A DNA stretch of 20,435 nucleotides, taken from positions 1-20,435 of the forward strand of contig FMBT01000074.1 in the NCBI GenBank assembly GCA_900095095.1, written 5' to 3'. This document shows, piece after piece, positions 1 to 19,672 of the stretch. Made by a program: the position numbers and the translations under genes. The first letter of the stretch is position 1, and the number at the start of each line of letters is the position of its first letter. A model generated the notes under the pieces. It was given only the letters and a program-made list of their open reading frames with translations. It was not told where the DNA came from and did no database searches. The DNA is from Fragilariopsis cylindrus CCMP1102. Taxonomy: Eukaryota > Bacillariophyta > Bacillariophyceae > Bacillariales > Bacillariaceae.

Positions 1-1439
1 ATGATCCAGCAGAACCAATTTGGTGAACGAGTGAGGCTTGACACGTTCCATCACTTCTTGAACCGTTGAATGATGCCATTCAAAACAGCCAGCATTTTCA
101 CGTAACGCGTCGAAATGCTCCTCCATAAGTGTTCGGGGACAGCAGGATTGGTCTTTGTATCCCTTATCAAGGTAGAATCGGTAAAAGTAATTTGAGCTGC
201 CAAATTCTGGATCCATGAAAATTTCTTTCAAAATTGTCTCGTAAAATTCAACCGTGTAAAATTCTGGTCCGATTTGGTTCGGTGGTACTCCGGCGAACGG
301 TGCAATGATACGAGGAAAGAGGCGACGCATCCACCAAGCAGATCGTTCGATGAGATGGTAGTTACCTTGGATGTAGTCGTGAGAAAATCCCTTTTCGGCC
401 CACTCCTTCAAATTGAATCCGACAGAGTACATGAGGAACGGAATGAGGAATTTTGCACAAAAACCGGTCGATCCCGTAGTTCCAAATCCCTGGCGGAAGA
501 CGCGGTCGATACGTCCATCCCACCATTTGCGTCCATCTGCCGACATAGTGTGTCTCATTCGTTTCCAAACTTTCATAGCAACCGACACATCGGAACTACC
601 CCAAATACTCCACCATTCTTCATATGTTAGATTTTGGTCACGGAGCATGCGTATTTTGAGTTCAAAGAGCCACAATTGATGCTGATTCATGTCGCAAATA
701 ACAATTTTAGATGGTCCCTCGATAGCGTAATCGAGGACGATATCTCCAGCAGAACAAATTCGAAATATGACATCATCAGGAGTGATTTTTAAGATTTGAT
801 GGTCGACGGCTGGATCTTCCCAACAAATGTTGTAGATGTAGGTTCTGTTACAAATTGTATCAATCATGTTGAAGGACTTCTTAACAATGACTTTTCCTAT
901 GTAAAATCCTAAAACAGCCCCAGCTGTCCACGCATACGTCGAGTTACTAGTGAGCTCGACCTTAGAGATCTTATTAGAGACTGTAGTCATTGTCGATACA
1001 GCCGCATTGCTCACGGCAGCGGTCAATTTGTCGACCGAAGCTTTGTTAACTATAAAAGAAAATGGTGGAAGTAAAATAGGTGTGAGAGAAAAATACAAAT
1101 GACAATAAGGAGTATACTGGTATATTTAAACTATACAAGGAAAAAACGGCGACGACCGACCGACCGACGAATTGCTATTCATGTATGTATGAGAAAATGA
1201 TAATACTCTCAAAACAAGAAAAAATGCCGCATTAAACAACAATAGTTGATCAAAATAATTAGTGATCGTTTTATTGTAGTTGTCATCTTGGCATTAAAAC
1301 ATACTGTATGAGCATTTTAATTGATTCGATTCGATTTGACCAATTATGACTTTTTTTTTTTAAAACACTCTCAGATCTTTTGGATATTTATTCTTGGTTT
1401 TTCTCTGCCTGAACATTAATCGTCTTACTCACACATCAT
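1..1439 (-). CDS. BTA1: Betaine-lipid synthase, BtaA (DUF3419) domain, partial
   Basis: The minus strand is open from 990 (ATG) to the window edge, giving 330 residues with no stop; the 3' part lies outside. BtaA transfers the 3-amino-3-carboxypropyl group of S-adenosylmethionine to diacylglycerol, the first step of DGTS betaine-lipid synthesis at the ER. Counting from the ATG at 990, a hydrophobic segment (about 20-36) precedes the family core: ICSAGDIVLDYA at 78-89, an acidic/Asn site ICDMNQHQLWLFELK at 98-112, and near the edge KLVLLDH, which matches the KxVLLDHMDW region of the family. Order and motifs fit PF11899 well. The N-terminus is unsure. The frame stays open upstream to a good 3' splice site (pyrimidine tract, then TATAG, ending at 1050). 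A 7-nt coding exon ATGATGT at 1439-1433 followed by donor GTGAGTAAG (1432) joins to it in phase, giving an N-terminus MMFNKASVDKLT. Whether a BtaB N-methyltransferase domain follows cannot be seen. Divergent from the PEMT-fusion gene. Confidence 0.85.
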
Positions 1440-2559
1440 GATTACCACCACCGATTTCCGCAAATAGTTACGGTATTTATATTGTTTACTTGTTACTTGT
1501 TACCAAAACAAAACAGCGACAAAACAACAAAATAGTAATCAATTGAAGGAAGTAATGGTAGGAAGAAAAAGAAGTATATTGTAGCAATGCTTTAGAATTA
1601 ATTTTATGGAAAATAAAGTTTAATGTCGTTTGTACGGTATGAGGCGGAAGCAAGATTCATTTTATCGTGTGTTCTGGTGGGGTGGCTGAGATTCGATTCG
1701 AAAATTCGAAAGGATATATTGTTATCACTTGATTGTTAGGCGACGTCGTTTCATTCGAGTAAGTTAGGGTTAGAGTTCGGATTTTCAGATTCGCTATTTG
1801 ATATTTGTGCGAGGAAAATGAAAATAAAATAAAATGACAAATCGAAACCTACCAATACTCACGTTAGTATCGAATGATGAATCATCAAGCAAAGCATGAA
1901 ATCGAATGAATGAAGGAATTCGAATCTTCCTTCAACAAATTATTTTGATCCACCATCAGTAAAATATAACAAATACACAGAAACACCCGTAACACCCGGC
2001 CTTAATTTCAAACATGGAAAAATTAATGAAAACCGCGCGACAGTTGTTCTATTAATTATAATGAGGTTAAAGAAAATCGCGAATACCGAAAAATATATTT
2101 AAATCGTACTTATAGCCTAATTGTTACCCCCTTAACCCTCAAATAAAATTTTCACACGGCGACTTTGGATAAACATTGGAGGCATAAGTAAATTAATTAT
2201 TGCGAAATATAATATTTTTTATTACAAAGATTAAAAAAAATCGAACTATAAGCCCTGTTAATTCATTTCCCTTTGGAGATTAAAATGAAGTGGATCGCGC
2301 GAATTTTATGAAACCGGGGTGCTAGGGGATCACACAGAAATCAAAAGACAGCTCATCGATCATTTCAACTCTTTTAAAATATCTATTATTTCAATTTTTC
2401 TTCTTCAACTTTTATCACAATCATTTTACGGTACCTGGTACATACTTGAAGTAGTAACTAAAGTCATTGTTATCATTCTACAAGTAAACGATATTATTTT
2501 CTGATTTGCGAACAACAATAATCCAAGAAGAAGAATAAAAGACAACCATCGATTCGAGA
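1051..2559. other. Divergent 5' region between BTA1 and the lipid methyltransferase fusion
   Basis: This AT-rich stretch of about 1.5 kb separates two head-to-head lipid genes. It probably holds both promoters and the first intron of the betaine-lipid synthase (1050-1432 in the proposed model). A second minus-strand donor-like sequence, GTGAGTATTGG, begins near 1866 and could mark a 5' UTR intron. A short CGAC-rich tract lies at about 1148-1170. The only ORF (2319-2504 plus, 61 codons) has no recognisable feature and is probably chance. No RNA gene or clear transposon was seen. Confidence 0.5.
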
Positions 2560-4762
2560 ATGGCGTCGAGCAAGAGCAGCAACGATGACTCTAACCAAAA
2601 GCATGATTTAAAATCTATCTTTTATAATAAATCATCTTATAATCATTTCGCTCAATCTTTTCATCCTTTCCACAGGCACGATTTGAATTGCCTGTTTCAT
2701 GTCGGCACTACGGGATTGGGTATGTGGGGTGCTATTCAAATGGCGGTAGAGTTCAATGCAATTTCTATTGTCTATGCATATGCTGCTGTCATTGCATTGA
2801 CCACACCTGTCGTGACAGCGCTGTTCCACACTGCCTTTGTTTACGGATGTTTGCTACTTCCCGTAACGGATATTATGTCCGCAGTAACTGTCGAGAGTTT
2901 TCCTGGTGGCACCATATGGTTTTGTTTCCTTACTATAATTGCAGGATACGGCTTACAGGATCTGGTTCATTGGCTATGTCAAGAACCGACAATGATGTCA
3001 TCGTATATAGAAACCGATCCATATTTACTGATCGTTCATACTCTCTGGTTAATGCCGTTAGGTATCGATACCGTATTGATGCGTCACTTCTTCATCCCTA
3101 AGTTGTTCGTTTCACGCAATCGTAATATATTTTGCAAGGTTGCGTCGCGAAAGGCCGTGGAAGATCTACGTGAATGGATTAACCAAGAGGTTCCGGAAAA
3201 ATCGGTAAGTCGTTTGTTGTATTACTACAATTATTATTATTATCTTGTACAACGTAGGGTGGAGTTTTTCGCTTCGTTTTTTTATATCCACGCGTCTGAC
3301 CAACCTACTACGAATTCTCGCTACGTTCGAAGGAAACGACGCATTTGTGGCCTCATAAGCAGGAAGGCACCGATGATCCAGTGACCAAGTTGGAAAACGA
3401 CGCAGCTATCATGGCGGGATTTCGCAAGATCTTCGCTGCACATCATTTTGATGTCCGTCCCGTTGTGGAGATGAATGAAATTTACATTACGGCTGTTGGT
3501 GCAATCAAAGAGATCACCTCGGATGCAGTTTTCTACACACCTCACACGGATGGACCCTTCTGGTGGTTGCCTGGAGCTTCACTTTATCGTGTTTTAATCG
3601 GTGTTACGCCGAACAAAATGGTACGAACAAACTTCAGTCTTCAACATATTTCTGAGGACAAAACTGTCAATATGTATGATGCCTTAGGATTTGACTACAA
3701 CCGAGAATTGCATTGGATCGACCATGCACCAGGACAGACAAATACCGAACGTCGATCATTATTAAAGCTTCACTACGTGGTTTATCCAAAAGGTACGATA
3801 TTTACACGTATGATGTATGATGTATGATTTATAATGTATGAACTCGTAATTATCACTTTACGATACTAGCAAGTTATAAATTACCATCTCATCTCACCTG
3901 CCTATTTAATTTCAATATATCATGATAGGTTGGCATAACTATGGCAAACTTTGTGCCTACTTCAACAAGTCATATAGTAAGTAAAGAGTACAGTACAATA
4001 CTAATACGAAAGAAATAATACGTCGCGTTGATCGTTAATTGAATTTTTCTCTTATCTTCTAAATATTGTTAAAAAACTTCAAAAAACGGTGGTTTCTTCT
4101 AAATGTTGTTCTCTTAAGATACTTGGGCCCGTGGAAACTTCCTGGCAACACTTCGTCCCGTGACGTTGTATGAACAGGCCGTTGCATGGTGGATTTGGAC
4201 TACAACAACGTCCAATGCGATGTGGGAATTGCACATTGGCTGGCCAAATCTTGTGTACGTTATCGCAGCCTATTTGATGGGTGATACACCTTTCTTGATC
4301 TTGACTTCCTTTCGGCATTATTGCATTTATATATCTACTTTTGCATATCGCGCCCCAGCAGTTTCACACGGTTTTTTGATGCGAGATTGTAAATTTTACA
4401 AGACATTAGCGTTAATGCATTTGTCTAAACGTATCTTGCCCCTGGTGCAACTACCGGATGATCTTCCAGGCATAGCTCTCGCTCTCTCAGGTTTTTCCAT
4501 AACTATATTAGCCACAATGCAACTGGGCATGGTCCGTACCTATTTCGGAAGTGAGTTAGGGTTTGTAAAACCGAAGTGGGTCAGTGGATTTCCGTACAAT
4601 ACTATACCCCATCCAATGATTGTTGGTCAGCTTTGTGCTTATTCTAGCATTTTATTTTGGTGGAAAGATGACATGCATTTGGAAACTAAGTTGTTGGTTG
4701 CCGGTCATATGTCATTTTATGTCATACATATGTTACAAGAAATGTTAACTTCCAGCTATTGA
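2560..4762 (+). CDS. Mpo1/DUF962-like, dioxygenase-like and PEMT-type methyltransferase fusion
   Basis: Four exons, 2560-3204, 3333-3792, 3929-3976 and 4119-4762, join in phase to 598 residues; all introns are GT-AG. Residues 1-180 are membrane-spanning and carry FHRHDLNCLFH (H38, N43, H47) and Q133-x3-H137. These match the HxxxxNxxxH and QxxxH pattern of Mpo1/YGL010w (DUF962), the Fe-dependent dioxygenase that shortens 2-hydroxy fatty acids. Residues 270-370 contain HTDGPF (286-291), YRVLIGVTP, GFDYNRELHW and ERRSLLKLHYVVYP, an HxD...H layout like aspartyl/asparaginyl beta-hydroxylases; this assignment is weaker. Residues 395-598 hold several membrane segments ending in YFGSELG...GFPYNTIPHPMIVG (526-554), the signature region of phospholipid methyltransferases (PF04191, PEMT), with a late HMLQE (588-592). 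It is probably an ER membrane enzyme that oxidises and/or N-methylates a lipid. Substrate is unknown; phosphatidylethanolamine derivatives or betaine lipids are both possible. Intron 3 (3977-4118) is the introner-like element described separately. Confidence 0.8.
3977..4118 (+). mobile_element. Introner-like intron, copy A (intron 3 of the PEMT-fusion gene)
   Basis: This spliceosomal intron (GTAAGT...TTAAG, 142 nt) must be removed to join KSY to TWARGNF in phase 1. Its first 111 bases (3977-4087) match intron 8360-8250 of the unrelated bestrophin gene at 106 positions without gaps, starting exactly at the 5' splice site. The five differences are at intron positions 32, 69, 87, 88 and 111. At position 111 the acceptor G of the other copy is C here, and splicing appears to have moved 31 nt downstream, where CTTCTAAATGTTGTT partly repeats CTTCTAAATATTGTT from upstream. 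No terminal inverted repeat or obvious target duplication was seen. Confidence 0.8.
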
Positions 4763-4796
4763 AATTGATCAAACCAAGAGAAGAGAAACATCTTAC

Positions 4797-5001
4797 TACT
4801 TCCTCCAGCAAGCGCTAATTTAGTGAAGAGTTTTGCGCCTCAAATTTCACGCCACAAAGCACGGAGATTGAGTGAATTCAAGTGAACGCTTTCAATTTGA
4901 ATTTAAATTTTTTTAGTTCTTTCCCTCAAAAACTTTGCCTTTGCGTCTTAATTTTTATCGCGCAAAACTCCTAACTAAATTAGCGCTCGCTGGAGGAAGT
5001 A
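4797..5001. mobile_element. Stowaway/mariner-like MITE, 201 bp with TA target duplication
   Basis: The 42-bp ends 4797-4838 and 4960-5001 are inverted copies of each other, identical at 39 of 42 positions. Each begins TA then CTTCCTCCAGC and ends GTTTTGCGC. If the outer TA is the target duplication, the element is 4799-4999 (201 bp). Short length, long terminal inverted repeats, no coding capacity and a TA target are typical of Tc1/mariner-derived MITEs; the CTTCCTCC terminus resembles Stowaway ends (CTCCCTCC). It sits between the convergent 3' ends of the PEMT-fusion gene and DPH7, 35 bp past the stop of the former, so it may lie in that gene's 3' UTR. No transposase is present in the window. 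Confidence 0.85.
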
Positions 5002-5421
5002 TGAAGGAGTAATTACTCTGTGCGTGAAAATAAATAGAAACACAAGCGTAGGCTTCTACTGATACTAGTATTAGGAATATTAAATCATCAAAAAAAAATA
5101 TCTGAAGGTGTGCTATTACCACTAATTAATTGTCATTCAAATATTTATTCCAATCAACCCCAAGAGGAGTGAACACGCAAGCATTGAATAGTAAATGGAA
5201 ACACCGAAATCAACCGTTAGTTCTTATTCCATTGCTCAGCCAGCTGAGTAGTAATTAATACTGTGTACTACTGTGTACCAAGATAGGACACGGTAGGTAG
5301 AGCGATCAATTGTATTTAATTTTAAAAAAACGCGCCAATCAACTCCTACTATAGACTTTGACACACTTAAACTCCACGTGTTATATCGACTTAACTAGAC
5401 TGTAATGAAGGCTGTTCTTAT
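5002..5421. other. Convergent 3' intergenic region
   Basis: This AT-rich spacer runs between the MITE and the stop codon of DPH7 and presumably holds the 3' end signals of both convergent genes. A short local repeat, CTGTGTAC(CA/TA)CTGTGTACC-like, occurs near 5261-5280. No ORF, RNA gene or mobile element was recognised. Confidence 0.4.
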
Positions 5422-6777
5422 TTAATCCCAAATGAATGCTTGGCAATCATAGAAACTACAGCTTGCAGCAGCCTCAAAATCTCCGTTCTCACCGCAGATC
5501 CAATCTGCGCCATACGCCATAGATTTGTGCTCCGTAAATTCCTTTACGATATTCATCTTGAATTCGGTATGATCTGATACTAATGAAGATATTGACGGCA
5601 ATTCAATATTCGGAACATCTACCAGCCTACAACCCCCATGCATAGCACCAACCAGCATCCGACTAGCATCTTTAGGATGCCATTTTATGCGCCATACTCC
5701 ACCTCCAACATTCACTTTCCCTAATGGTTCTCCACTTAACTTTCTCATATCGTATATTCTCACTTCTTCATCGTAACTCCCAACCGCAAAAATATGTTCC
5801 AATGAAGGATGATATGTCACAGCAGTGACGCCAGCTTCAAAACCAGTTTTCACGGTGACAGGCTTTGGATTGCTTATGCCACATAATCTCACATCCCATA
5901 ATTTCATTTTGCAATCGTCCCCACCACTAATAACTGTATCTGCATATGTATTGTAATGACAGTTACTCGCAAAGCACACAGTCCATACTTCGGCCGGACA
6001 GCCGAATAGTTCATGAGCGTTCCATCGATGCGTTTCTTCGATTTCCAAGGCACTGCTGTTACTATTTGTATCAACATCAATATCAGTATTAACATTGACA
6101 TTGTGCAGTGCTAACGTTCCTTTTGAATAGGAGGAAACGATCCGAGTACTGGTCACTCCTGTTTGATTACTAGAGAATAACGATTCGTCCCATGCAAGTG
6201 ATAGGGCAAGGCCGATTTGATCAACGTCATCAACTTCAGATGATCTAACATGAGCCAATTGTAAATTTGACTCATCTGGATCGTCTCCATCGTCCCCATC
6301 GTCAAGAAGCTGATATACATTTATGGCTCCAGATGCGTTGGCAGTAGCATACATGTAGAATTCGGAAATATGTGATTCTTTCATTCTATCATCACTATGG
6401 GAATCACGAGTATGAAATGAAAGTCTTCCACTCTGAAGCCATTTCCCATCTAATACACCGCTGTCTGCAGACAGTGAACCCTGCCGCTGCTTTCCGAATT
6501 TTAGTTCTTGATTGATAGAATACAGTATCAACTCTCCACTCCGTGAAGCTTTGGCTTTCTCTTTACAAATCTGATCATTATTATCATCATCTTGGTCAAG
6601 ATTTTGTTTACCGTCATGATCAGGTTCTTGTTCCTCTACCGTCGACTCGTTAAGTTGATAGCATCCGATGATTACAGGGTAACTATTATTTTTCAGTGGT
6701 GTGTAGAGTGTTTCAAGACTGCATGCATTTAGGCTGGTTTCAAGGCGATCAATCCATGCATCCTCATTTGAAGTCAT
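5422..6777 (-). CDS. DPH7: Diphthine methyl ester hydrolase DPH7 (WDR85), WD40 protein
   Basis: A single exon encodes 451 residues. DPH7 removes the methyl ester from methylated diphthine on translation elongation factor 2, allowing the final amidation to diphthamide in the cytosol. The C-terminal half is a WD40 propeller with diagnostic stretches: SGGDDCKMKLWDVR, then GVTAVTYHP, FAVGSYDEEVRIYDMR, GGGVWRIKWHP, MLVGAMHGGC, and YGADWI near the end. These follow the order seen in animal and fungal DPH7. The N-terminal part has the typical PVIIGCYQLNE strand, then an acidic Asp/Gln-rich insert (about residues 45-75) and further low-complexity inserts that lengthen it relative to compact homologues. 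The ATG at 6777 is chosen because the homologous N-terminal strand begins shortly after it and stops lie upstream. It is convergent with the PEMT-fusion gene. No link to the neighbouring lipid genes is implied. Confidence 0.9.
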   Translation of the reverse strand: MTSNEDAWIDRLETSLNACSLETLYTPLKNNSYPVIIGCYQLNESTVEEQEPDHDGKQNLDQDDDNNDQICKEKAKASRSGELILYSINQELKFGKQRQGSLSADSGVLDGKWLQSGRLSFHTRDSHSDDRMKESHISEFYMYATANASGAINVYQLLDDGDDGDDPDESNLQLAHVRSSEVDDVDQIGLALSLAWDESLFSSNQTGVTSTRIVSSYSKGTLALHNVNVNTDIDVDTNSNSSALEIEETHRWNAHELFGCPAEVWTVCFASNCHYNTYADTVISGGDDCKMKLWDVRLCGISNPKPVTVKTGFEAGVTAVTYHPSLEHIFAVGSYDEEVRIYDMRKLSGEPLGKVNVGGGVWRIKWHPKDASRMLVGAMHGGCRLVDVPNIELPSISSLVSDHTEFKMNIVKEFTEHKSMAYGADWICGENGDFEAAASCSFYDCQAFIWD

Positions 6778-7676
6778 TTTATCTAGCTAGATATGTACTG
6801 TCTGCGATTACTAATAGTAGTACTTGAGCATGTTTGATATCGAATGGAAAGATGAATTAAGAATTGAGAATGTGATGAAATGTTTTTATTTTAAAATTTA
6901 GACAAAAATACCGGGGGTAATTGAGTGATTCGTGTCAATTCGGGGGAGGTAGGAGTCCTACGTCTTATGCTTCTCTTATATCTTATATAAAGGGGCATAC
7001 TCAAAACTAGCATCCTTATAAATAATATATTTGTGCTACGGATGGCATGTGGCATCAGCCCATCTTCTTGATTTGATCTTCCCACATAACTTATGCTTGA
7101 GGAAAATCAAATAAGACAGGGTATTATCTTGACCAATCAGGCTCTCACTATTGAATTCCTTTACAGTTATATTCTAGCACCCTTCCCCAAATTTTGTAGC
7201 CCCCTCCTAAAATATCTTAAAGAAACCAAAGAAGATGTAGCTAGAAAAATAACAAGTTATATATAGATAATATAGAGCAATTGTGTTTCTTAAGTTCTAT
7301 ATCACTATGAACATAAAAGACCACGCCATGAAGGTATGTGATCTGATCGCAAACCAAATTAATAAACAGTAGACAAATAATTGTTTGAGGGACTGAAATA
7401 AGTCATTCTTATATATTTTTCAAACTATCAGAAAAAACCAGCTAGTTCTTAAATTTTACGACTCTAAAAATCTGCTACAAATACTGTTATAACAAGTGTA
7501 GGCTGAAGGTCTTTTAAACCGTGGACTTTAAGAGAGAGAAAGAGACTGGTTAAACCCTATTATTGCACCAGGGACGACTACGAAGTCGGCGTCACCCCCC
7601 TCTCTCCGACCACGCTACGACACGAATAACTTTTAGCAACTACAAAAAAGGTTTGGTTCGATCTACAATAATTTAG
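6778..7676. other. Intergenic region upstream of DPH7 and downstream of bestrophin
   Basis: About 900 bp without a supportable gene. It should contain the DPH7 promoter next to 6778 and the bestrophin 3' UTR next to 7676. A small imperfect hairpin (GACGACT, loop ACGA, AGTCGGCGTC) lies at about 7573-7592, beside a pyrimidine-rich CCCCCCTCTCTCC tract. The 64-codon minus-strand ORF at 6891-7085 has no recognisable features. No tRNA cloverleaf was seen. Confidence 0.35.
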
Positions 7677-10600
7677 CTATTTAATGCTGCCATCAACAAT
7701 CGAGTCATCCTCGTCGTCGGTATTTTCCGGAACAGAATTTTCCTCCTGTCCTTCGAGGAAGATAGGTTGTATTTTATCTTTCCCGCTATCCTTAGTGGTG
7801 TCATCATCACTGCTAGATTCTGCTTCAAATGACTGTACAACGGAATTGCTTTCAGGATCCTTCCTACTATCATCTTCCCTGTCGTCTTTTGAAGAGATGT
7901 CTACTGGAATTTCGACGCTGTCTGTTTTAGACGTATTTGATATCGGGGCGACGTGTTCCTCTTCAAGTAAGGTTGATTCTGCCCAATCATCTCCTCCTGC
8001 TTGGGCACAGTTGGTATCACTGTTGGTATCACTGTTGGTATCACTGTTGGTATCGTCATCAGCGTTATCTAGGCCGCCCTCAATTTCCACGTCCATTTCA
8101 AGAACAGCCAGGTCTGCATCTTCGATGAAGGTTTTGTTTTTCATTTCATTTTCGTTTACAATTTCATCCCCATCTTCGATCTCATCGGTGTCTTCGGCAA
8201 TTGAAGTATTAGACATAGGTGTCAGTTGCTCGTCATCGTAATCCCATCCCTTTTTTGAAGTTTTTTAACAATGATTAGAAGATAAGAGAAAGATTCAATT
8301 AACGATCAACGCGACGTATTATTTCTTTTGTATTAGTATTGTACTGTACTCTTTACTTACCACAGGATCCTCCCCCGGCTTCGAGAGTAAGATAGCTTCC
8401 GTCTCTCGTAATTCTTCTTCTGCTTGCGTAATTATTTCTTCTACTTGTTTATTGTAGTCCTCTATTGTCATGGGTGTTGTCTCATCGGCAGATTCGATAG
8501 CCCATTCTTCGTCCGCAAGCATTTCACTAAGTCTATATTCTTTTTCATCGTGCCAAGGAAGACTAGCAAAAGATCCATTTTCATCGTCACTATCTTCTTT
8601 GTCCAAGTTTGCACCTTCATCGACAGTTGTCTCATTCGAAGAAGCTGTGTCTGTTTGTGGATCATCAATATCATATTGAAAATCGTTTGTAGATCCCCAA
8701 AGCTCAGATATTCCCGCAAAAGATCCCATCCCAGCTATTTCACTCTCATCCGGTCTTCTATTTTTATTAATAGTACTCGAATCATCAGATAACCCGCTTC
8801 CTTCTCCTCCCCAAAGCTGAGAAACAGAGCTGAAATCAACATCATCAATTTTTTCTGGCGGCTCGTATTCACTCAGTGCAGATGGGTCTTCAGGTGGGAG
8901 ACCCCAAAGCTGCGAAATACCGTCGAGTCGGGTCTGATCATAAATTGGATCAATTTTCTTTTTTCGTTCTGTGACAGTGTACAGATTTTCACCCGTCTCG
9001 GCACCTGGAATCGCACTTAAAATCTCTATGGTCTCTTTTAATTCATTCTCGGCGTTCTCTTCGATTTCCTGTAATCTGTCTTCATATTCTTCTCTCGTCA
9101 TATTCTTAACTTCGATATCATCTGTCTCAACTACCCAACCTTCATCAGCCAGTTGCTGACTTAAACGGAATTCTTGGCCGTCTATACCAACTTCGTCAAA
9201 CCAAGGTAAATCTTCGTATGCTTCCAGATCGACCATTTCCGAAGCAAAATCATTCTCATCCAAATCGGCGGCAGCAAGAAGTGACTTGATTTTTTCATTC
9301 TGTTTTTTCAGAGTAACGAGATAATTGCTTGTTTGCATACCTGTTGGCACCGGCTCTTCGCGAAATGATTTGATCGTCTCCATGGGCTTGAATGACGAGA
9401 TCAGTGAGCCATCAGTGGCGAGTGTTGTGACCGTATGAACAGGCCTAGTTTCTTCTGGAGAGCTACTGCTTGTCACATTTGGTGCAGCATTGCTTTCAGA
9501 TGAATAAATTTTGGATATGTTAGACGACGTTGAGACATTTTGAAATGTCTCGGGAATAGAAGAGGAAAAGTTGTCTTCTAATTCTACAATTGTTTTGTTT
9601 CCATCTGTAGCGGCACTTTCTACTGTATTAATAGTGTTAGATGCGGTCTCAAGTATCGGGGTGATGTGAATTCTGTAACTGCTATCTCGGCGTTGTTTTC
9701 ATCGTTGAAAGAATAAATGTTATCGTCATCTACATCCCTTTTATCTGTTATTTCGTCGATCTCAGTTTCTTCTGCTTCTGCTTCTTCCCAAACTCGCTCC
9801 GCCTCGGCGGCGGCAGCAGCCTCCTCGTCCTCCCTTTTTCGTTGCTCTTCTAGCTGCTTTTCTCGTTCGATCTTTTCCTCTTCCATCTGATCAAGTTCCT
9901 CGACGGAATAACCTCGTACTGGAAGCAAATATTCGTAGAGCTCGCCGTCATTCAGCCGTTGTGCCGAAAAAGGCAGTTCTTCAAATCCGTAAAGCCATCG
10001 GATTGACCCTGCGTTCGTTTCGGCGATCAGTGTATCGACGCAGAGGGGATCCTCGCCTCGACCGTAGCTTTCGTTATCGTATGGGTCTAAGAATTGCTTT
10101 GCTAAATCGAAGAGACCCTGGTAGCTGATAGTTAGCAATCCCGATCCAACAACAACCAGCAGTGGCGACATATCAATTGAAAATGCCATAAAAGGGAACA
10201 TCCATAAGATTAAATCTACAAGAACTTGGACTATGTGAGCGTAGGCTAAGGGCATGCGTCCCTGTAACTCATCGCCAATAGCCCCGTACTGTTTGTGGAA
10301 GAAATAAGATTGAGTGGTGAGCATTATATTGACTAGTCCTTTTGATCCTGTATCGTTATTTTACGGTATAATTAATGGATACCATGCAATCGTACACACT
10401 TACTTGGGACCGAATTATGTGAAATTTGTGCATCGTTTCCGATTCAAAACCATGACCTCCTTGGATATGTCCCGATCCCCGGCCCTCTACGAAAAGGCGT
10501 ATCATCCACATCAGTACGACGCTGTGTCGTTGCGTGGCCGGGATGGCCGCGTCGACCAAGACCTCTCGTTCTGTTGCCGTCATCAGTCCTCGCTCAACGA

Positions 10601-11700
10601 GTCGTCGCAACCCTCTTGGTGTCAATATCGGACGATGTGATCGTGTGAAGGACGCGTATGTTAGTAGATTGAACAAACGTGTGTAACGACTCATAAGCTC
10701 AAGAATTTGCCTTGACGAGACAGTATATGTCGATTTTTCATTGGGATTAGAAGGTATCTTGCGCGCAGCATGAGAGGCCATGTTCATATTGACATCGTGC
10801 AGTCTCCCTTTTGTATTTATAATTGGAATGTGGACGGTTCATTCGGTTGCGAAACGAGTTGAAAAACATATAGCGAGTCGAAATATATAGAAACAAACAA
10901 ACAAAAGAGGGAGAGAGTCAGTTGCAATCATTTTCGTCCACGAATAAAGGCCTCTTGTTTGGGAGGTAAATTTCGTAACGGATGAGATAATGTAACGAAC
11001 CTTGAAGCCGACGACTAAGTTCCATGCACTTTCTCCACAAACTGTAAGATTGATTGACGAAGAAGGTCAAAGTAAATGTAGTCACCGATAATAACTGTCC
11101 CCACTTTAGGCAGAAAAAATATCAGAGACAGACGTGAGGGGAAGATGAGTGAATTAGAAGCTTAAATATGGTACAATGTATAGAAGCATTGCTATGATAC
11201 ATATCACTTACAAGGATGTTGAATCCAGAGAGATTGCTTTTGATGAGCGTTGGATATGAGCGGTGGATCAAATAGATGGCCATAGCAAAAAGCATATTCC
11301 TAGCTGCGTAAATAATGAAAGATCAAAATAAGAGAATGACGAGTGAGATTGATTCCATTTCAGATCAAAATGACACCAACAGATAAGGAGAATAAAACCA
11401 AACACCAGTCGATTCATAGAGTCGATGCAAAATTATATACTATAGTTAAAAAGACTTACCGCAAGAGATCCATGTCTCGGCAAATACTGTACCCTTCCAC
11501 CGCCGCCAAATCCAGCCACTTGAGGGATCGAATTGCATCATGATGGGTCGCCGTGCGCTGGTCCGTACGCTCTCGTTAATAAGGTCATCTAACAGATTCA
11601 CCGTAGAGGCTTGTTCGATAATAGATTCTGGTGTGGTCAAAACCATATGCAGGGCCGTAGAAGAAGACGAATAGGACGACAGCGGAGAAGAAGAAAACAT
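7677..11700 (-). CDS. Bestrophin anion channel with long acidic repetitive C-terminal tail
   Basis: Seven coding segments on the minus strand: 11700-11460, 11303-11212, 11103-11001, 10807-10404, 10288 to about 9620-9760, then onward to 8361, and 8249-7677. The first five join in phase. Bestrophins are pentameric anion (Cl-/HCO3-) channels; algal ones often sit in thylakoids and feed bicarbonate to the carbon-concentrating mechanism. Family marks in order are WIWRRWKGTVFAETW (63-77), TLTFFVNQSYSLW (122-134), RYTRLFNLL, LVERGLMTATER, QYGAIGDELQGRMPLAYAHIV, and DLAKQFLDPYDNE in the calcium-clasp region. A Glu/Ala coiled coil follows, then a Ser/Asp/Glu-rich tail with two related 60-70 residue modules, three (I/V)S(Q/E)LWG motifs and a (DTNS)4 repeat. 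Two uncertainties exist. The start could lie upstream of 11700, since the frame is open to about 11850 and no clear signal peptide is visible. The frame also changes between about 9760 and 9620, so the tail could instead be a separate gene. Confidence 0.75.
8011..8054 (-). repeat. 12-bp coding minisatellite (DTNS repeats)
   Basis: The plus strand reads TTGGTATCACTG three times in tandem plus a fourth partial copy (TTGGTATC). On the minus strand this encodes DTNS repeated within the last exon of the bestrophin-tail gene. The copies are perfect at the DNA level, which points to recent slippage and probable length polymorphism. Confidence 0.9.
8250..8360 (-). mobile_element. Introner-like intron, copy B (last intron of the bestrophin gene)
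   Basis: This 111-nt intron begins GTAAGTAAAGAGTACAG and ends CTTCAAAAAAG. It carries an in-frame TAA, and its removal joins ...GEDPV to GWDYDDEQLTPM in phase 0. It matches the first 111 bases of the intron at 3977-4118 at 106 positions without gaps. The match covers the intron from donor to acceptor, while the flanking exons are unrelated, so the intron itself is the duplicated unit. Both copies lie in sense orientation of their host genes although those genes are on opposite strands. CTAAT near position 84 could be the branch point. Confidence 0.85.
8373..9209 (-). repeat. Degenerate protein repeats in the bestrophin tail
   Basis: Two related modules occur in one reading frame. At 9209-9003 the protein reads LPWFDE...EFRLSQQLADEGWVVE...MTREEYEDRLQEIEENAENELKET...P. 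At 8558-8373 it reads LPWHDEKEYRLSEMLADEEWAIE...MTIEDYNKQVEEI...AEEELRET...P. Between them lie three short motifs, ISQLWG (8918-8901), VSQLWG (8822-8805) and ISELWG (8711-8694), spaced about 32-37 residues apart in Asp/Ser-rich sequence. The DNA copies have diverged, so conservation of the protein pattern suggests selection on binding motifs. Confidence 0.8.
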
Positions 11701-12649
11701 ATTTGAAAATTGTCGACCACGCTTTTGAGCTTGTTCAAATGTATCCCTCTTGGATTTTGAACTCGCCTGGAACTTATATATTAATTTTGTGGGCAAATAG
11801 TGGGTGGGACGCACCCTTCGAAGACGAAGACGACGAAAATTTTATTCTCTTATCCGGACTCATTCCTCTGAGTATTGTTGGTGCTGTTGTTAGCGCAAAA
11901 GCAGCATATGGAATAATATCTCGTTTTTGCGAACAATCATCTTGTGGATTATTCAGCATTAATATCAGTGTCAACACTAACTTTATTATTATTGTGTCGA
12001 CCGATCGTCGTCTTGTTGTAGCTTGAGACTGACGGCGTCGGCGTCTATGGAACGGTTTTGAATCGAGGAACTCCAAACATATCTCTTCTTCTACCGGGGT
12101 TTTCATTTTTGTGTGGATGGAATTTATACAAAGAAATAAAAGGCATCGATGGCCTAGCCGTTTTTGCGGTTAAGGTGTGTGTTACAGTTGGTTTTCTTTT
12201 TCCTTCTTACTTCTCTCTTTAGCTTTTGAAATTATATCAGGTCACAGCGCACCGTAGGATGATATCGTTATATCTGTAGCAACAACGATGTACTTTTTAT
12301 TGAAATATGTAAGATCGATGTCGGCCAACACAAACAACGATTAGTTGGATTACTCTGCAGCATTAATACAAGCCTAGCTTTGTTAAATGTGTTTTGTCGA
12401 AACTCGATAATATTTGAATATTATTTTTTGATGCGTTGTCTAAAAATGCCGATGTATTGATGGATGTAGTTTTGTACGGTAGAAATGGAGCGAAATACAT
12501 AATTCCTATCCCCCCCCCAAAAAAAATATATTATGGAATGATATTAATAATCTAGTAAAATTTAGTCTTGGTTTCTATATTATGATAGAGCCAACTGTTA
12601 ATTGTTCTATTAAATGTATTTCATTAGTTTCATATATCGGGTATCATGT
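11701..12649. other. Upstream of bestrophin; competing ORFs on both strands
   Basis: This stretch lies between the bestrophin start and the stop of the DUF4460 gene. Two overlapping open frames occur. The plus-strand one, 11703-12026, contains the acidic stretch DAPFEDEDDE followed by a plausible transmembrane helix (LLSGLIPLSIVGAVVSAKAA). The minus-strand one, 12106-11774, is Arg-rich with a hydrophobic stretch. Neither is recognised as a family, and at most one is likely real. A C9/A8 homopolymer run is at about 12510-12527. The remainder (12107-12649) shows nothing supportable. Confidence 0.3.
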
Positions 12650-13858
12650 TTAGATTATTGTCTCTTGTCCGAACATTGCGGCGTAATAATCACCGTCCAG
12701 ACCACTGCCTTGAGTTTGTATGAAATCAGACATGTTCCGTTGTAGTTCATCTTTCAATTCGTTGTTCTCAAAATCTACAGGAATGGAAAGAGTTACCCGA
12801 TTGTTATGATGAATAGTAAAGCAGTATCCTGTCTCTAAGTTCTGGTTTTTCTTACGCCGTTTCCGTAAGGCTGACGACGAAAGATTATAGGGTCGTGGTT
12901 CCGTTACTAGTATAGAAATTTGCTCCTCATAAAACTTCCCCATATCTTCCAAACGTAAATCGTCAAAGTTTTCATCCAAGAACCGCAAGAATCTCCGATA
13001 TGCAACCAATCTTTCCAACGGTGAGATTATTTCTTTAAATTTAATGTTGGACAATACGTTTGCTAGTAGCTTCTGCCGCAATCTTGGGTTGTCACGAATC
13101 CAGTGACGAGTCTGAAGATGGATCTCAGCGTCCTGGACAGCCTCACGATAAACCTGATTGAATTTCATAAAATCAAAATTACGATTGTGTCTCTGCCAAA
13201 AACGATCCCTAGACGCTTCCCAGGGAGTCATCTTTCGATGCTGTCGTTGTTTCGGGCTTTCATTGGTACTACTATTCATATCGTAGGCCCTACTTGTACT
13301 TCTACTATTATTGTCATGGTTTCTATCATCATCATTGTCGTCTTCCTCATCATAAAGGGATAGTGAGGTTGGAACCGGCAAATCGGAGATTCGTAAGAGC
13401 CGAAGGAACTGACGTGTGACGTGATGTTGTACCGAAGTAGATGACATGGTCATCGGCGGAACTCTCAGTTCTAATTTCCGACGGCTAGTAGAGACGTTGG
13501 GTTGATTTTTATTCCCCACTTGTGATGATTGTATCGTCCCCTCTTGGTTCTGGTTTTTCGACATCACAAATTCGATTTCAACCGTGTGTTTGTCGTTTGG
13601 AAAAGGGTATTTGTATTCATTGTTTTTTTTAATCAATTTTTTCACACCATCGATGTAAGAATTCAGATTCTGAATGGCAGCGAGGTTGATCTTTTGGGCT
13701 GAATCAGGTAGGCCTTGTTGCCGTGCCATATCTGGGTGACATTTAACAATAAAGGGCTTTATCAACCGTTTCAACGAAAACGACGACGACGACGACGAAC
13801 ATCGAGATAAGAATACGAATGTCTCTACCCTTTGTCGCTGCGATAAAGACCTCAGCAT
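12650..13858 (-). CDS. DUF4460 (TCAIM-like) J-domain-related protein, probably mitochondrial
   Basis: A single exon encodes 402 residues. The N-terminus (MLRSLSQRQR... then a Ser run) is basic and poor in acids, as in mitochondrial presequences. Residues 28-75 (LKRLIKPFIVKCHPDMARQQG... then INLAAIQNLNSYIDGVKKL) match the DUF4460 pattern of TCAIM-type proteins: a helix ending in HPD (41-43), then an NxxxLxxLNxYID helix. HPD is the J-domain signature, so DUF4460 is thought to be J-like. The middle contains Asn/Gln and Asp-rich low complexity and a repeated basic region (RxxFWQRHNRNFD). The C-terminus (CFTIHHNNRVTLSIPVDFENNELKDEL) resembles the end of TCAIM-type proteins, but less clearly. Exact function is not known. 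It is divergent from dephospho-CoA kinase across about 400 bp, so the two may share a promoter region. Confidence 0.6.
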   Translation of the reverse strand: MLRSLSQRQRVETFVFLSRCSSSSSSFSLKRLIKPFIVKCHPDMARQQGLPDSAQKINLAAIQNLNSYIDGVKKLIKKNNEYKYPFPNDKHTVEIEFVMSKNQNQEGTIQSSQVGNKNQPNVSTSRRKLELRVPPMTMSSTSVQHHVTRQFLRLLRISDLPVPTSLSLYDEEDDNDDDRNHDNNSRSTSRAYDMNSSTNESPKQRQHRKMTPWEASRDRFWQRHNRNFDFMKFNQVYREAVQDAEIHLQTRHWIRDNPRLRQKLLANVLSNIKFKEIISPLERLVAYRRFLRFLDENFDDLRLEDMGKFYEEQISILVTEPRPYNLSSSALRKRRKKNQNLETGYCFTIHHNNRVTLSIPVDFENNELKDELQRNMSDFIQTQGSGLDGDYYAAMFGQETII

Positions 13859-14257
13859 CTTGTGTTTTTCTCCTCTACTATCCTGCTGTTTCTACTCGAC
13901 TACTAATAGTAATAAATTTGTAAAAGCAAAAGAAAGTTGTAAGTTTAAAAGTTACTCTATTATTATGGCATACTTGTACAACTTGTACGGTAACGTTAGA
14001 GTGAAAGAGAAAAGAGGCTCATGACGAGAGTCGAGTGAGTCAAGAGATAGAAAACTGATAATCGTGAATTGAGGAATGAATCAATCAAACAATCGAGACA
14101 TACTTAGTCCCATAATTGAAGATTTGAATTATCGGCGACAATAAAAATTCGAGTGTCACACACTTTTTACTTTGTTGTCGATTATTTGCTACTTTTTACC
14201 GTACGGTAGTACTCATGTATCAACAACACAACACAATAGAGATAGGAAGAAAGCCCA
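13859..14257. promoter_or_regulatory. Putative bidirectional promoter, DUF4460 gene / dephospho-CoA kinase
   Basis: A 399-bp AT-rich gap separates two divergent start codons, so both promoters must lie within it or overlap the genes. It contains palindromic ACCGTACGGT (about 14198-14207) and a related TTGTACGGTAACGTTA near 13982. No TATA box could be assigned with confidence. Confidence 0.4.
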
Positions 14258-15214
14258 ATGTTATATTGTACCATATCTACTCGTAGCCCGATATATATTA
14301 TCTTAGTTCTAGCTGTTTCCGCGTGTAGTGCATTTTTCTCTTCAAATTTAGCACTTTCTCGTCGAAGATACTGTTACGAAAAGTGTCGTTATCGCCAGTT
14401 CAATTCCCCTTCCGGAACGACAGAAAGTGGTGAAGCTGTGATGGGTAGCGATGAAGAGGATAAGTCTATTGTGATAGAAGAATCAAGAGAAGGATACAAT
14501 AATTCCAATGAAAAATTTAAAGTATTAGGTTTATGTGGAGGAATTGGGTCTGGCAAAAGTTCCGCGTCAAAACTTCTAGTATCATCATGCAATTGCCTTA
14601 AACACATAGATGCAGATTCTGTTGCCCATTCGATTTATACACCGGGATCACAGGCGGTTCTGAACGTTGTGGATGCTTTCGGCAAGGACATTCTTGTTCA
14701 ACAAGACGATGGAGAAGAAGATAGTACTGCTCCAATGGAAATTGATCGAAAGAAACTTGGTGAGATTGTCTTTGCTGAGCGATCTGCCATGGCCAAATTG
14801 GAAGCGATCGTCTGGCCTCACGTAAAGACGCTCATCACCGATGAGATTGATATACAACGACAGAAATGGACCAAAGAATGTATCGCCTCAAACAAACGTC
14901 CGATCGTAGTTCTTGAGGCTGCTGTTCTCCTTGACGCGGGATGGGACGACCTCTTGGATGGAGTGTGGGTAGTCACTACACCAAGAGATGTTGCCTTAGC
15001 ACGGCTTATAGAAACACGGGGATTGACTATAGAAGAAGCCAATAAACGAATTGACGCTCAAGAATCCCGACGAGGAATTGGAAATTTGCAACAAGAAATC
15101 GACTTTGGGCTTATAACTGGCGAAATCAATAATGATGGCAGCTTAGACGCTTTAACGAGGTCTTTGAGTAGATCATTAGACGATCCCAAGTTTTGGAAAC
15201 GTGATCGCACTTGA
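14258..15214 (+). CDS. coaE: Dephospho-CoA kinase, predicted plastid-targeted
   Basis: A single exon encodes 318 residues. The enzyme phosphorylates the 3'-hydroxyl of the ribose of dephospho-CoA with ATP, the last step of coenzyme A synthesis. The catalytic domain starts at about residue 87: Walker A GGIGSGKS (94-101), IDADSVAH (117-124), KKLGEIVFAE...LEAIVWPHV, VVLEAAVLLDAGWDDLLDGVWVV, and RLIETRGLTIEEANKRIDAQ. All are standard CoaE motifs in the usual order. The first 86 residues are extra. Hydrophobic residues 12-24 form a signal peptide, followed by SACSAFFSSN with a CSA/F junction, then a Ser/Arg-rich stretch. This is the bipartite ER-then-plastid signal with an ASAF-like motif found in diatoms. 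It implies that a late CoA step occurs in the plastid or its surrounding compartments, where fatty-acid synthesis needs CoA and 4'-phosphopantetheine. The ATG at 14258 is supported by the complete signal peptide. Confidence 0.93.
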   Translation: MLYCTISTRSPIYIILVLAVSACSAFFSSNLALSRRRYCYEKCRYRQFNSPSGTTESGEAVMGSDEEDKSIVIEESREGYNNSNEKFKVLGLCGGIGSGKSSASKLLVSSCNCLKHIDADSVAHSIYTPGSQAVLNVVDAFGKDILVQQDDGEEDSTAPMEIDRKKLGEIVFAERSAMAKLEAIVWPHVKTLITDEIDIQRQKWTKECIASNKRPIVVLEAAVLLDAGWDDLLDGVWVVTTPRDVALARLIETRGLTIEEANKRIDAQESRRGIGNLQQEIDFGLITGEINNDGSLDALTRSLSRSLDDPKFWKRDRT

Positions 15215-15522
15215 TACGGATGTGGTGATGTTTTATTTAACTTATCACATAATTTCGATTGATTGAATGGCCATGAACTGACGAATAACTTATTATGCTA
15301 CTAGAGAAGGAGAGACATACAAGGTGGAAGCGGTTATGATTATATATGTGATAATCCGGATTAATGATTATCACTGCATTGAATATCATCGTTGTCATGA
15401 ATGCCTCATTTACAACTTCAGAACAAGTTTACTTTCAATTAAAAAACATCAACACTACACTAAATTTGTTGAAGTATTGGTTTAGATAAGATCAATCCAA
15501 TTATATACAATGAGAATTTAGA
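15215..15522. other. Convergent 3' intergenic region
   Basis: This 308-bp AT-rich gap lies between the 3' ends of dephospho-CoA kinase and the bromodomain gene. A short inverted motif, TGATAATCCGGATTAATGATTATCA, centred near 15357, could fold into a small stem, but no function can be assigned. Nothing else was recognised. Confidence 0.4.
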
Positions 15523-18500
15523 TTAGCAAATCTCTACAGAATCTTGAAGTGGTTCATCCTGAACAATTTCATCTTCTTGACTTTTTTCAGCGACACTAGT
15601 AATCTTTTTCGTATCGTTAACCCTCTTCCTTTTCTTCCCTGCCAAAGGATGAGGCTTCTTCGATTTTTTCAAAGGATTCTCACGAGCGAGCTTGTCATCT
15701 TCTATAATGCTATCATTCATCTTTACCACTTCCTTCCGCACAACTCTCAAACGCTCCACACGCCTCTCCTTCGATGCCTTCGCGAGCTGAATTTCCCTTT
15801 CTAGAAGTTCAATTTGTTTCTTCAAACAGGTAGACCTCTCCGCGGATGTCTTTTTCCCCTTCAGTCTGATGGTATCCCATGGGTTTAGAATAATTTTTCC
15901 GGGAGCCCCCGTATCTTGCTTTGGCATCGGAATTAGACCAGCAGATGCACGAAAGGCCAGAGCCATGCCACTCAAATTGGTTGAATCAATCAAAGAGGAT
16001 TGGATCCATTTTTGATCTCCACCCAAACCTAGGGGCTTGTAGTCCCCGTTTTTTGATGCTCGACTGACATAACCACTAACTATTGCTGATGCACGTTCTC
16101 GTTTAGATACAATTAAATGACGTCTCCCGGGAGCTGGATCAGAAAGCTTCCGCTTCTTCTTTTGATGTTGAACTCCCTTGAGAGCCTTTTCTCTTTCTCT
16201 CATGCGCTTTCTCCGCTTCTTTTCCAGATCTCTCGTCTCTTGACGTTTTTCTTTTTCCTTCAACTTCACATCCTTTGCCTTTTTTGCTTTATCAGCTCTC
16301 ACTTTCTTCGCTTTAAGAGTTTTTTGCTTTTTTTCCGCATCAAGCTTCTGCTGTTTTATGATCTGAGCTCGTTTTTTTCGTCCGGCCATGGAAAAGTCCA
16401 AAAGTCCATTGGATGCAAGCAATTCATTGCACTCATCCATATCTAAATCTTCACTAGTAAGATCGTCATCATCAGTTTCGCCATCTGCCTCATCGTCCGA
16501 CTGAGACAAAACACTATAGCTGTATCCCTCTTCTTCATGCTCTTCTTCGTCCTCCTCTTCCTCTACAGGACCTCCAATGTCTTGCAGCTGAAGCTCAAAC
16601 TCTTCCAGAGCCCATTGAGCTTCCTCTATGGCGTTCGCATAGGTTTTTGAACCAAGAATGTTCGCTAGACTTTTGCGTGAAACTTTTTTCGTACGATGCC
16701 CTGAGACATCCTTCTTGTTGGGATCGTCTGCTGAATTGAAATTCTCAACAATGTCTGCCTCCCGAACCCAGATGAACTCGTGCGAGCCAAGAAATTCCAC
16801 CAGGAAGAAACTCTGGGGGTCTGCTTGACCTAGGCTTTGTCGCTTAACAGCTTGTTCAGCTTTGCGTTTTCCAGTAAGTAACTGAGATTTGAGCTTTTCT
16901 GGTAATCTAGCCTCGTTTCTTTCGGTTAAAAATTTGTGCCAATCTTCTTTCTGGTCTGAGGGTGCGATAATTCCCAATACTAAAGCCGGCCAAAAAGGTT
17001 TCTTGCTCGACTCTCTCGCCCATACTGCTGCTGCCATACAACCCCAAATACTCGATTGGCTTACTCCTCGACAGGTTGCTTCGTGAATGGGTACGACTAA
17101 TTGACCGAGATACCGATCCATCCTACTTGCGATCCTAATTCTAAGCGAAGTATTCATAGTTTCGAGTCCATCTCCTTCTGTATAACACTTTCGCACATTT
17201 GCTTCAAGTTCGTCTACTCCCAGCTCTTCATTATTAGCCACGATTTCTCGGAGGGACGCTTCTAACTTTCTGAATTTTTCTAGAACAACCTCCAAATCAC
17301 CTTCATCGTCATCATCTAACATGACACCTTCTCCCCAAATGGGTTGTGTATCTAAAGGATCCACAAGCCCGCCATTCTCAATAAGGTCGTGTAAAGCTTC
17401 CGCAGCCCTTTCTAAACATTTTCCAGCCATAACGGACAAGCCCGAAACAATTAACCGCCTTTTTCGGTACTGTGCACGTTCTTCCATCGCAGATCGTATG
17501 GTTGCGTGAGGATCTTGGGTTTTCGATCGTCCTCCTCCAGAGCCTGTAGGTGGTGGCGGAGGGAAGTCTGATCCAAGCATGTGTTCTTGCCACAAATCGT
17601 TAAATAGATCTCGTAAATGTAAGGCAATCGATACGAATGATGGAACGGCATCCTTGTTGCTGGGATGAGAATGGTATTTGAAACAATTCGCGAAAATCCT
17701 CCATGCATCGAGGCGGACATCACGTAAGTTTTCATATTGGCGACGACGGATTTTGCGACATACTTTTCCTAGATCAACAGGATGATCAACAATCTTCGTG
17801 TACACGTTCATAAGCTGTGGGTATCGTACACGGTAGTGTATAAAAGAACAAACATAGGAATGAATTGTTATTTATTTAAACGAATCGATGAGTAAGCACG
17901 ATGCGAAAACGAGGGAAATACTGATGACAACAGAAACATTTATCTCCATCTCACATCACATTACGTACCTCAGGATGCAATAGCGCCACAGGTCGACTAA
18001 ATTCGGCCAAGAGTGGTACTCTACAAAATTGTTCCATCAGGGCCTCCAGTTTCCCGTATTCTGTTTCTGTTATGGGTGATTGAGGATCGTCCATAGTCGG
18101 AACCGACAGTCTACCAGCAGTCCCGTTGTTGGATTTGCGATTACCAACATCGACAATTTTCTTACCGCTGCCAGTGTTGCCGCTTTTATTTATCTTCTTC
18201 TTTCTTGCAGAATTTGGCATCGTCTTCTTCTTTTTCGAAGCCGGGGGAGGTGCTGAAACCAAATTTGGCGTGGATGTTTCCGAAGAAATTGCGGAATCCG
18301 CTACCGTTCCTGCTTGTATAGACTTGTTCTTTTTCGGTTTGTTGTCATTATTGTCCCCTTCTTCACTCTTGCTACTTTTTGCATTAGCCTTAGACGCAGT
18401 CTCTTGTTCTTGTTTTTGTTCAGCCTCCAGTTCCTCGAGAATTACTTGACGTCGAACAGCAGAGGCTAGTTTCTTTGCCATTGCTTCTGGCTTACCCCGC

Positions 18501-19183
18501 GGTTGCGGTTGCGGTTTTGGTTGCGGAGGAGAAGGTTGGGACTGAGCTGAATCAGTATCCCCCTCGTCGTCTTCACCACCATGCGCTTCTTGTATCGACG
18601 TTGCTTCGTTGTCTTTTTCCTCATCTTTGTAAGGTCGTATTTGCAACTCTGGGTTGTTATTCACGTCGTAGTCGTCGTCATGATCGTCATACGCTGCCGC
18701 GGCACCAGCAGTAGCGATGGTAGATTGCGGTGCGAGTCGTTGAAGTTCATGCAGAGCTGCTTGCTGTTGTTGCTGATGATGCAGCGCTTGTTGCTGCTGC
18801 TGCTGATGCAGCGCTTGTTGTTGTTGTACTCGAGCAGCGGCGGTTGCAAGGGCAATATTCGTGTTGCGTTCTTCCTGAAGCGCCACGGCAAGGGCTAAAC
18901 GATCTTCAGCCGTCGTAGCTCCTACTCGCTGATGTGCGTAGTAGGCGGCGTTTGGGTTATTTCCTTGTTCTGCCATCAAGTTCATGTGTAAACCCGAGAG
19001 ACGATGTTCCTGCTGATTCCGAGCAGCGGCGTTAGCTAAGAGATATGCTAGCTGAGAGTCCTGATGTTGTTGATGTTGTTGCTGTTGTTGCTGCTGGTAA
19101 CGAGCATACTGAGGAGGAATGGACGGATGTTGACCTGCAGGCGGGCCGGGGGGGAATTGCCCGTTCTGGTTGTCGTTGTTCAT
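15523..19183 (-). CDS. PolyQ bromodomain / PWWP-like chromatin reader
   Basis: Two exons, 19183-17969 and 17814-15523, join in phase 0 to about 1168 residues; the intron (17968-17815) runs GTACGT to CCACAG. The ATG at 19183 (MNNDNQNGQFPPG) is the first after an upstream TTG-started extension. Residues 1-150 are Gln-rich with CAG/CAA runs. A basic, Lys-rich nuclear-type stretch follows. The splice junction lies inside a bromodomain (about 375-480): TEYGKLEALMEQFCRVPLLAEFSRPVALLHPE joins LMNVYTKIVDHPVDLGKVCRKI, then the QYENLRDVRLDAWRIFANCFKYH helix. Further on (about 650-770), AAAVWARESSKKPFWPALVLG and SFFLVEFLGSHEFIWVREADIVENF form a PWWP-like fold that reads methylated histone and DNA. Acidic and long Lys/Arg coiled-coil regions complete the protein. 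It probably recognises acetylated and methylated chromatin; partners are unknown. It is divergent from the exocyst-like gene. Confidence 0.8.
18755..18840 (-). repeat. CAG/CAA triplet tract encoding polyQ
   Basis: The plus strand shows interrupted TTG/CTG triplet runs that encode Gln-rich blocks with Ala-Leu-His interruptions, in the bromodomain gene. A second similar tract lies at about 19060-19100 (QQQQQQQHQQHQ). Such tracts are prone to length change. Confidence 0.85.
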
Positions 19184-19672
19184 GATGAAAATCAACAAAG
19201 TCAGTGATAAATAATAGTCTCTACTATCGAACTAGGCAGTACGAAGAAAGCCTGATGACCAATCTTAAACACCACAACAATAAAAATTATAAAGTGTATG
19301 ACTTCGAGAGTGTAATAATTATACCCGCAAAACAAGTTCCATAAGCACTGTGCAAGCACGGCACAACACGCGCATATCAACTTCTACATGGTAATTTTGT
19401 TGCATCTTCTCATCAATATCACTTCGTCGGAATATCATCAAGACAAGTTTTATTTTTCGTGTCTTTCCACGGTATCCATGCGGTTGCGCACGTGAATAAA
19501 TGACAACAGATAAATTTAAATTTTTGTTTTCCCACAAGCTCCTTGCGAGAAAATAGTTGCTGAGACTTTTAAACTTTATATTTCAACATTTCAACATACA
19601 GTATCAACTTTAAAACTTATAGGACCTAACATTAAACATGTTGTAACAAAACAAACCGAGTACAATAAGACC
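19184..19672. promoter_or_regulatory. Putative bidirectional promoter, bromodomain gene / exocyst-like gene
   Basis: A 489-bp AT-rich region separates two divergent genes. No RNA gene was seen. Minus-strand ORFs at 19319-19537 and 19610-19894 have no recognisable features, and the latter overlaps the downstream gene antisense. No specific promoter element is claimed. Confidence 0.35.

Follow-up and report, generated by a model that had tools for sequence, protein, structure and literature searches.

The origin of new introns is still disputed, and the window analysed here, the whole 20,435-base contig FMBT01000074.1 of the diatom Fragilariopsis cylindrus CCMP1102 (hereafter C272), raises the question of whether an ordinary intron can itself become the source of a new one. 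Two genes in this window, one for a PEMT-type methyltransferase and one for a bestrophin, each carry an intron of nearly the same sequence, which we call intron A and intron B. We are confident that they are two copies of one spliceosomal intron, recently duplicated, in two unrelated genes.

3977-4118, plus strand: intron A (142 bases, phase 1) of the PEMT-type gene; 3977-4089 match intron B
8360-8250, minus strand: intron B (111 bases, phase 0), located where the bestrophin gene encodes its acidic tail; 8360-8248 match intron A

One intron sequence in two unrelated genes

Window positions 3977-4089 on the plus strand and 8360-8248 on the minus strand align without a gap over 113 columns with 5 mismatches, and in searches of the genome the two introns found each other with E values of 1.6e-45 and 1.3e-45. 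The similarity opens at the G of GTAAGT, which is the first intron base in both copies. The acceptor of B falls at column 111, and the two Gs that still match past its end are trivial; A extends 29 bases past the 113-column match and is 31 bases longer than B. All five mismatches lie inside the 111 bases of B, the last being its 3' splice-site G, which is C in A. The exon flanks are unrelated, with identity at 13/60 positions on the 5' side and 12/60 on the 3' side, and BLASTP found no significant similarity between the host proteins, so the hosts are not paralogous. Each intron lies in the sense of its own gene, the two genes being on opposite strands, 4.2 kb apart and in inverted orientation. 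An earlier note on this DNA had described near-identical introns in two unrelated genes, matching over 111 columns from the exact 5' splice sites to the 3' splice site of the shorter copy, with unrelated flanking exons and both copies in sense; apart from the extension to 113 columns, the alignment bears that description out.

Evidence for splicing

2560-4762, plus strand: host gene of A, interrupted by introns 3205-3332 and 3793-3928 as well as A; its 598-residue product matches Pfam PEMT close to the C terminus
7677-11700, minus strand: host gene of B, encoding a bestrophin-family protein whose long tail is acidic; besides B it has introns near 11459-11303, 11211-11104, 11000-10808 and 10403-10289

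To judge from homologues, reading frame and splice signals, A and B are very likely both real introns. Excision of A yields FNKSYNTWARGNF, and this junction is crossed by 120/120 listed homologues; the search kept proteins of 0.55-1.75 times the query length, so fragments ending at A could not be listed. Excision of B yields SKPGEDPVGWDYDDEQ, which is crossed by the MMETSP-named protein P0241 and by P0242-P0244, and an unspliced B would terminate the bestrophin protein after VSKEYSTILIQKK. A home-made gene finder, whose 150 raw intron calls on both strands were mostly noise, recovered B exactly and fused A with the preceding intron.

Copy number in the genome

The genome searched comprised 67.9 Mb in 818 contigs on both strands, and the match counts given here are lower bounds. 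Searches with A and with B each led to two loci only, both of them found again in a near-identical contig, C299, of which the region 443k-464k corresponds to window 1888-20435 at 99.9% identity; being nearly the same sequence, C272 and C299 are therefore alleles or assembly duplicates. Two patterns of 25 and 28 bases, with up to 3 mismatches allowed, returned the same two loci and their C299 counterparts, with 0 matches for reversed-pattern controls. No antisense or intergenic copy of A or B appeared in the genome searches on both strands, the element core as an exact pattern had 0 matches in viral_contigs and 0 in genome_contigs, and intron A as query found no match in a phage collection.

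The earlier note had suggested an introner family, introns multiplying as mobile units, while allowing that only two copies genome-wide would tell against it, and two loci are what the genome-wide searches gave. Together with the C299 counterparts this is below the threshold of at least 4 similar introns per genome used to define a family, and a large introner family is not supported by the searches with A, with B and with the two patterns. In the criterion as first applied, introners are also expected to be similar to within ten intronic bases of both boundaries; here the similarity reaches the 5' boundary in both introns and the 3' boundary in B, and stops 29 bases short in A. The A/B pair is a real, recent intron duplication and, by the published threshold, not an introner family.

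The bestrophin reading frame is broken at window 9640-9700 on the minus strand by a 1-base frameshift near 9655 (SPR vs SPPIL in P0245), which is the same in C299. It is probably an assembly error in which one base was lost from a run of C.

A second pair among control introns

As controls, stretches with 15 other introns were searched genome-wide at E<=0.01. These introns were chosen by eye, with coding sequence on both sides, and comprised bestrophin introns 1-4, PEMT introns 1-2 and the introns at C299:430920, 433469, 463829, 464401, 464701, 465225, 467118, 468641 and 469985; real-looking introns left out include window 17815-17968, C299:425424 and C299:435194. Each stretch used as a query recovered itself. 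One control intron in the 15 had a partner (95% interval 0.2-32%). The pair consists of C299:464701-464992 and C108:244906-245016, with 104/112 columns identical; the match starts at AG|GTAAGT, takes in the first 110 bases of the C299 copy (about 93% identity) and stops immediately short of the acceptor of the 111-base C108 intron. The C108 intron sits in a FAD-binding oxidase gene, and the host proteins of the pair are unrelated. The sequence is unrelated to that of A and B, and the architecture is the same: the C299 copy, 292 bases long in an in-frame model vs 111 in C108, continues past the match. Its tail has no internal repeat (167/500 shuffles scored as high).

This second pair suggests that existing introns of the alga are at times copied to give new ones, and it makes the A/B duplication more than a curiosity. 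The earlier note had seen in its proposed family a source of new introns for the lineage; the copying of introns gains support from the second pair, the family itself does not.

Two further observations concern the same contig. The part of C299:464701-464992 past the shared sequence, C299:464813-464992, opens with a stretch that one frame translates as KRLPLPLDGTAVGMKI*, possibly an alternative terminal exon. At C299:431881-431969 lies an 80-base repeat found on many contigs in both orientations, with 38 further matches outside the two introns counted there.

A possible haplotype difference

1-1125, minus strand: DUF3419 gene, uninterrupted at 606/607 in the window; 111-base insertion there in C299

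C299:443890-444000 is a 111-base insertion in the DUF3419 gene, opposite window 606/607 and absent from C272, and it is possibly a presence/absence difference between haplotypes. The only match found for it is a 150-base intron, C303:267617-267766, with 81% identity over 102 columns. The empty C272 exon itself reads GTGGAGT at the insertion point, so what looks like a donor may belong in part to the target, and the C299 allele differs from C272 by several 1-base changes. The insertion was considered as a third clean splice-to-splice pair and dropped, its junctions being ambiguous. The sequences of the A/B pair, the second pair and the C299/C303 pair are unrelated to each other.

In five introns (A, B, C108, C303 and C299:464701) we looked for the marks of a transposon. 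No target-site duplication (TSD) was evident, the longest flank matches being 0, 1, 2, 2 and 2 bases for A, B, C108, C299:464701 and C303 respectively, and no terminal inverted repeats (TIRs) were found, their scores being matched by 30-83% of shuffles. The RNA folds of A, B, C108 and C303 were unremarkable (z = 1.61, 1.52, -1.13 and 0.00).

Age of the introns and direction of copying

The reading frames of relatives bear on the age of B. In the list of 120 bestrophins, ten (P0245-P0254, source 'ena', identity 98-99%) open with MLTTQSYFFHKQ, the translated end of intron 4, and close with VSKEYSTILI[QR]KK, the translated start of intron B; since they run from intron 4 into B, they are frames called on the DNA of other samples, which carries B. 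Nine of these have a Gln that is replaced by Arg in P0247. The base of A at column 32 would be expected to produce this codon change, which means that one of the A/B differences is polymorphic in the population. P0242 (91%) and P0243 (88%) start just past intron 4 and cross site B uninterrupted, as do P0270-P0272, P0285 and P0287, which have internal N termini. Their ends suggest that the DNA behind all of these frames has no intron at site B. Because several relatives' frames cross the site, intron B is probably a recent gain, and the recent movement that the earlier note had read from the identity of the copies looks right at least for B. As for A, the PEMT-type orthologue in Nitzschia sp. 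Nitz4 spans 1758 nucleotides for 585 residues according to its header. That length leaves no room for an intron, and intron A was probably gained too.

Site B has a further peculiarity. P0255 (97%) ends in DPVGKYI, implying an exon GTGG|GTAAG, in which the donor-like site is shifted one base downstream and the sequence after it differs, so that this relative appears to have another intron beginning almost where B does. P0335 (46%) also stops near site B, again with different sequence. A search with bestrophin P0245 gave 94 pattern stretches in genome_contigs and 19 in viral_contigs, none from a relative.

4055-4070, plus strand: segment TCTTCTAAATATTGTT, branch-site-like, in A; source of the internal repeat
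4095-4110, plus strand: second copy of the TCTTCTAAATATTGTT segment, 15/16 identical, in the A-only tail; 1/2000 shuffles scored as high

From its motif, TCTTCTAAATATTGTT may serve as a branch site. A may be a B-like intron that grew later, or B may be a shortened copy of A. Short direct repeats, as in break-repair gains, amount to flanking matches of <=2 bases and this one internal repeat in A.

Other features of the window

The DUF3419 family we take to be a BtaA-like betaine-lipid synthase. The DUF3419 gene (1-1125, minus strand) and the PEMT-type methyltransferase gene (2560-4762, plus strand) lie head to head and are perhaps a lipid gene pair. Between the two host genes lies a 215-base inverted-repeat element at window 4792-5006, with arms 4792-4859 and 4939-5006 that are 79% complementary; its part 4797-5001 has at least 35 matches on at least 26 contigs, and it is probably a miniature inverted-repeat transposable element. 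The best named relatives of the window's dephospho-CoA kinase are from the pennate diatoms Nitzschia inconspicua, Pseudo-nitzschia multistriata, Cylindrotheca closterium and 'Bacillariaceae sp.'. Nothing in Rfam matched in the window.

How the introns may have been copied

The explanation we favour is that, now and then, a single ordinary intron is copied into another gene, the most likely route being RNA. An excised intron would be reverse-spliced into another transcript, or joined to it by template switching of reverse transcriptase, and complementary DNA with the new intron would then recombine with the gene. That recurrent single-intron copying of this kind explains the pairs is, in our estimation, about an even chance; for A and B in particular, we would likewise put passage through RNA close to evens. 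Both clear pairs start exactly at the donor, which argues for an RNA step that knows splice sites. Three mutually unrelated sequences, each in two loci, fit single-intron copying better than one transposon family. It also should be considered what weighs against this explanation. Simple reverse splicing copies the whole intron, yet the longer member of each clear pair is only partly shared, and later growth of the longer copies must be assumed, which the internal repeat in A fits and the repeat-free tail of C299:464701 does not. The empty-site case is built on protein frames, not on the DNA of relatives, and 14/15 control introns were without a partner, so copying is not general at the sensitivity of that search.

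A serious rival is copying at the DNA level, in which a break was repaired from a nearby template, by templated insertion, synthesis-dependent annealing or ectopic gene conversion, and the copied tract happened to hold splice signals. Introns A and B are only 4.2 kb apart and inverted, which speaks for it; this closeness is weak support, however, because one 20-kb window shows close pairs only, and the second pair sits on different contigs. The 15/16 repeat inside A resembles Daphnia introns attributed to breaks (PMC4202315), and the different donor-like sequence of P0255 might mean that B overwrote an earlier intron. Both clear pairs nevertheless run from the exact donor to the acceptor of the shorter copy, and excision of A and B leaves a conserved protein unchanged, which would rarely be expected from a random copied tract. 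We regard DNA-level copying as rather unlikely. Another possibility is that a non-autonomous transposon gave rise to an introner family that is small or has decayed, leaving two recognisable copies. Splice-to-splice similarity in unrelated genes is the introner signature; introners occur commonly among aquatic protists, and some of their families have neither TSDs nor TIRs (PMC9860276). However, there are two loci only, with no TIR and a TSD of at most 2 bases; as A and B are 96% alike, decay has not hidden further copies. Neither the second sequence nor the third is related to the first, so this reading would require three separate families within about 60 kb. This, too, we consider unlikely. 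An artefact or ordinary inheritance, whether by misassembly, paralogous genes or converged old introns, seems to us highly improbable. It is true that C272 is a near-duplicate of C299 and that the two share the probable 1-base error near 9655, but both contigs contain the pair, and 10 independent protein clusters, drawn from other samples, show B as well; the proteins of the two hosts are unrelated, and 96% identity over 113 bases far exceeds convergence.

Relation to known intron gains

Intron transposition is the closest parallel to single-intron copying, being defined by a new intron that is homologous to another intron of the same genome, lies in an unrelated gene, has splice signals and occupies a site that is intronless in relatives (PMC3443670). 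A 2012 review tabulates 14 unambiguous events, in Mycosphaerella and Oikopleura (PMC3443670), so that well-supported cases of an intron as the source of a new intron are few. The host here is a diatom and, unlike in whole-intron transposition, one partner of each pair is longer; an RNA intermediate would here be an inference only.

Introners share with our pairs the splice-bounded similarity of introns in non-paralogous genes of an aquatic protist (PMC9860276). They differ in that there are two copies here, without TSDs of 3-9 bases or TIRs, and in that the match in A ends 29 bases before the acceptor (PMC9860276). The 2022 survey kept families of at least 4 introns and reported 5 to over 2,000 per family; because smaller families were excluded, intron pairs like these would have gone uncounted there (PMC9860276). 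In the available main text of that survey the words 'diatom', 'Fragilariopsis' and 'Bacillariophyt' do not occur (PMC9860276), and in the available text of a further paper 'introner' refers to dinoflagellates (PMC10716250). A literature search, judged on titles and abstract openings, returned no diatom introners or copied introns.

Fungal introner-like elements are likewise sense-oriented and without TSD or TIR, and parallel gains at one site have been reported for them, much as site B appears to have two different introns in near relatives (B and that of P0255); hundreds of near-identical copies are described there, however, as against two here (PMC4457414). They are also reported to fold stably (PMC3443670), whereas introns A, B, C108 and C303 do not. 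The new introns of Daphnia pulex resemble ours in being recent gains, in the internal direct repeat (here in A) and in the possible presence/absence between haplotypes (PMC4202315). Such repeats were found in 55/90 new introns in Daphnia pulex and attributed to breaks; the introns there are ascribed to break repair, whereas the source here is another intron (PMC4202315).

Two unrelated young pairs in a small stretch of genome, with a possible haplotype difference beside them, would make the question of intron origin testable in a group with cultured, transformable members. A bolder proposition, which we hold tentatively and think doubtful as it stands, is that this diatom lineage is in a phase of active intron birth, in which ordinary introns, with no dedicated element, are copied via RNA and leave many two-copy pairs. 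If true, intron transposition would be a live process observable between haplotypes, and many two-copy pairs would have been passed over by surveys that require at least 4 similar introns.

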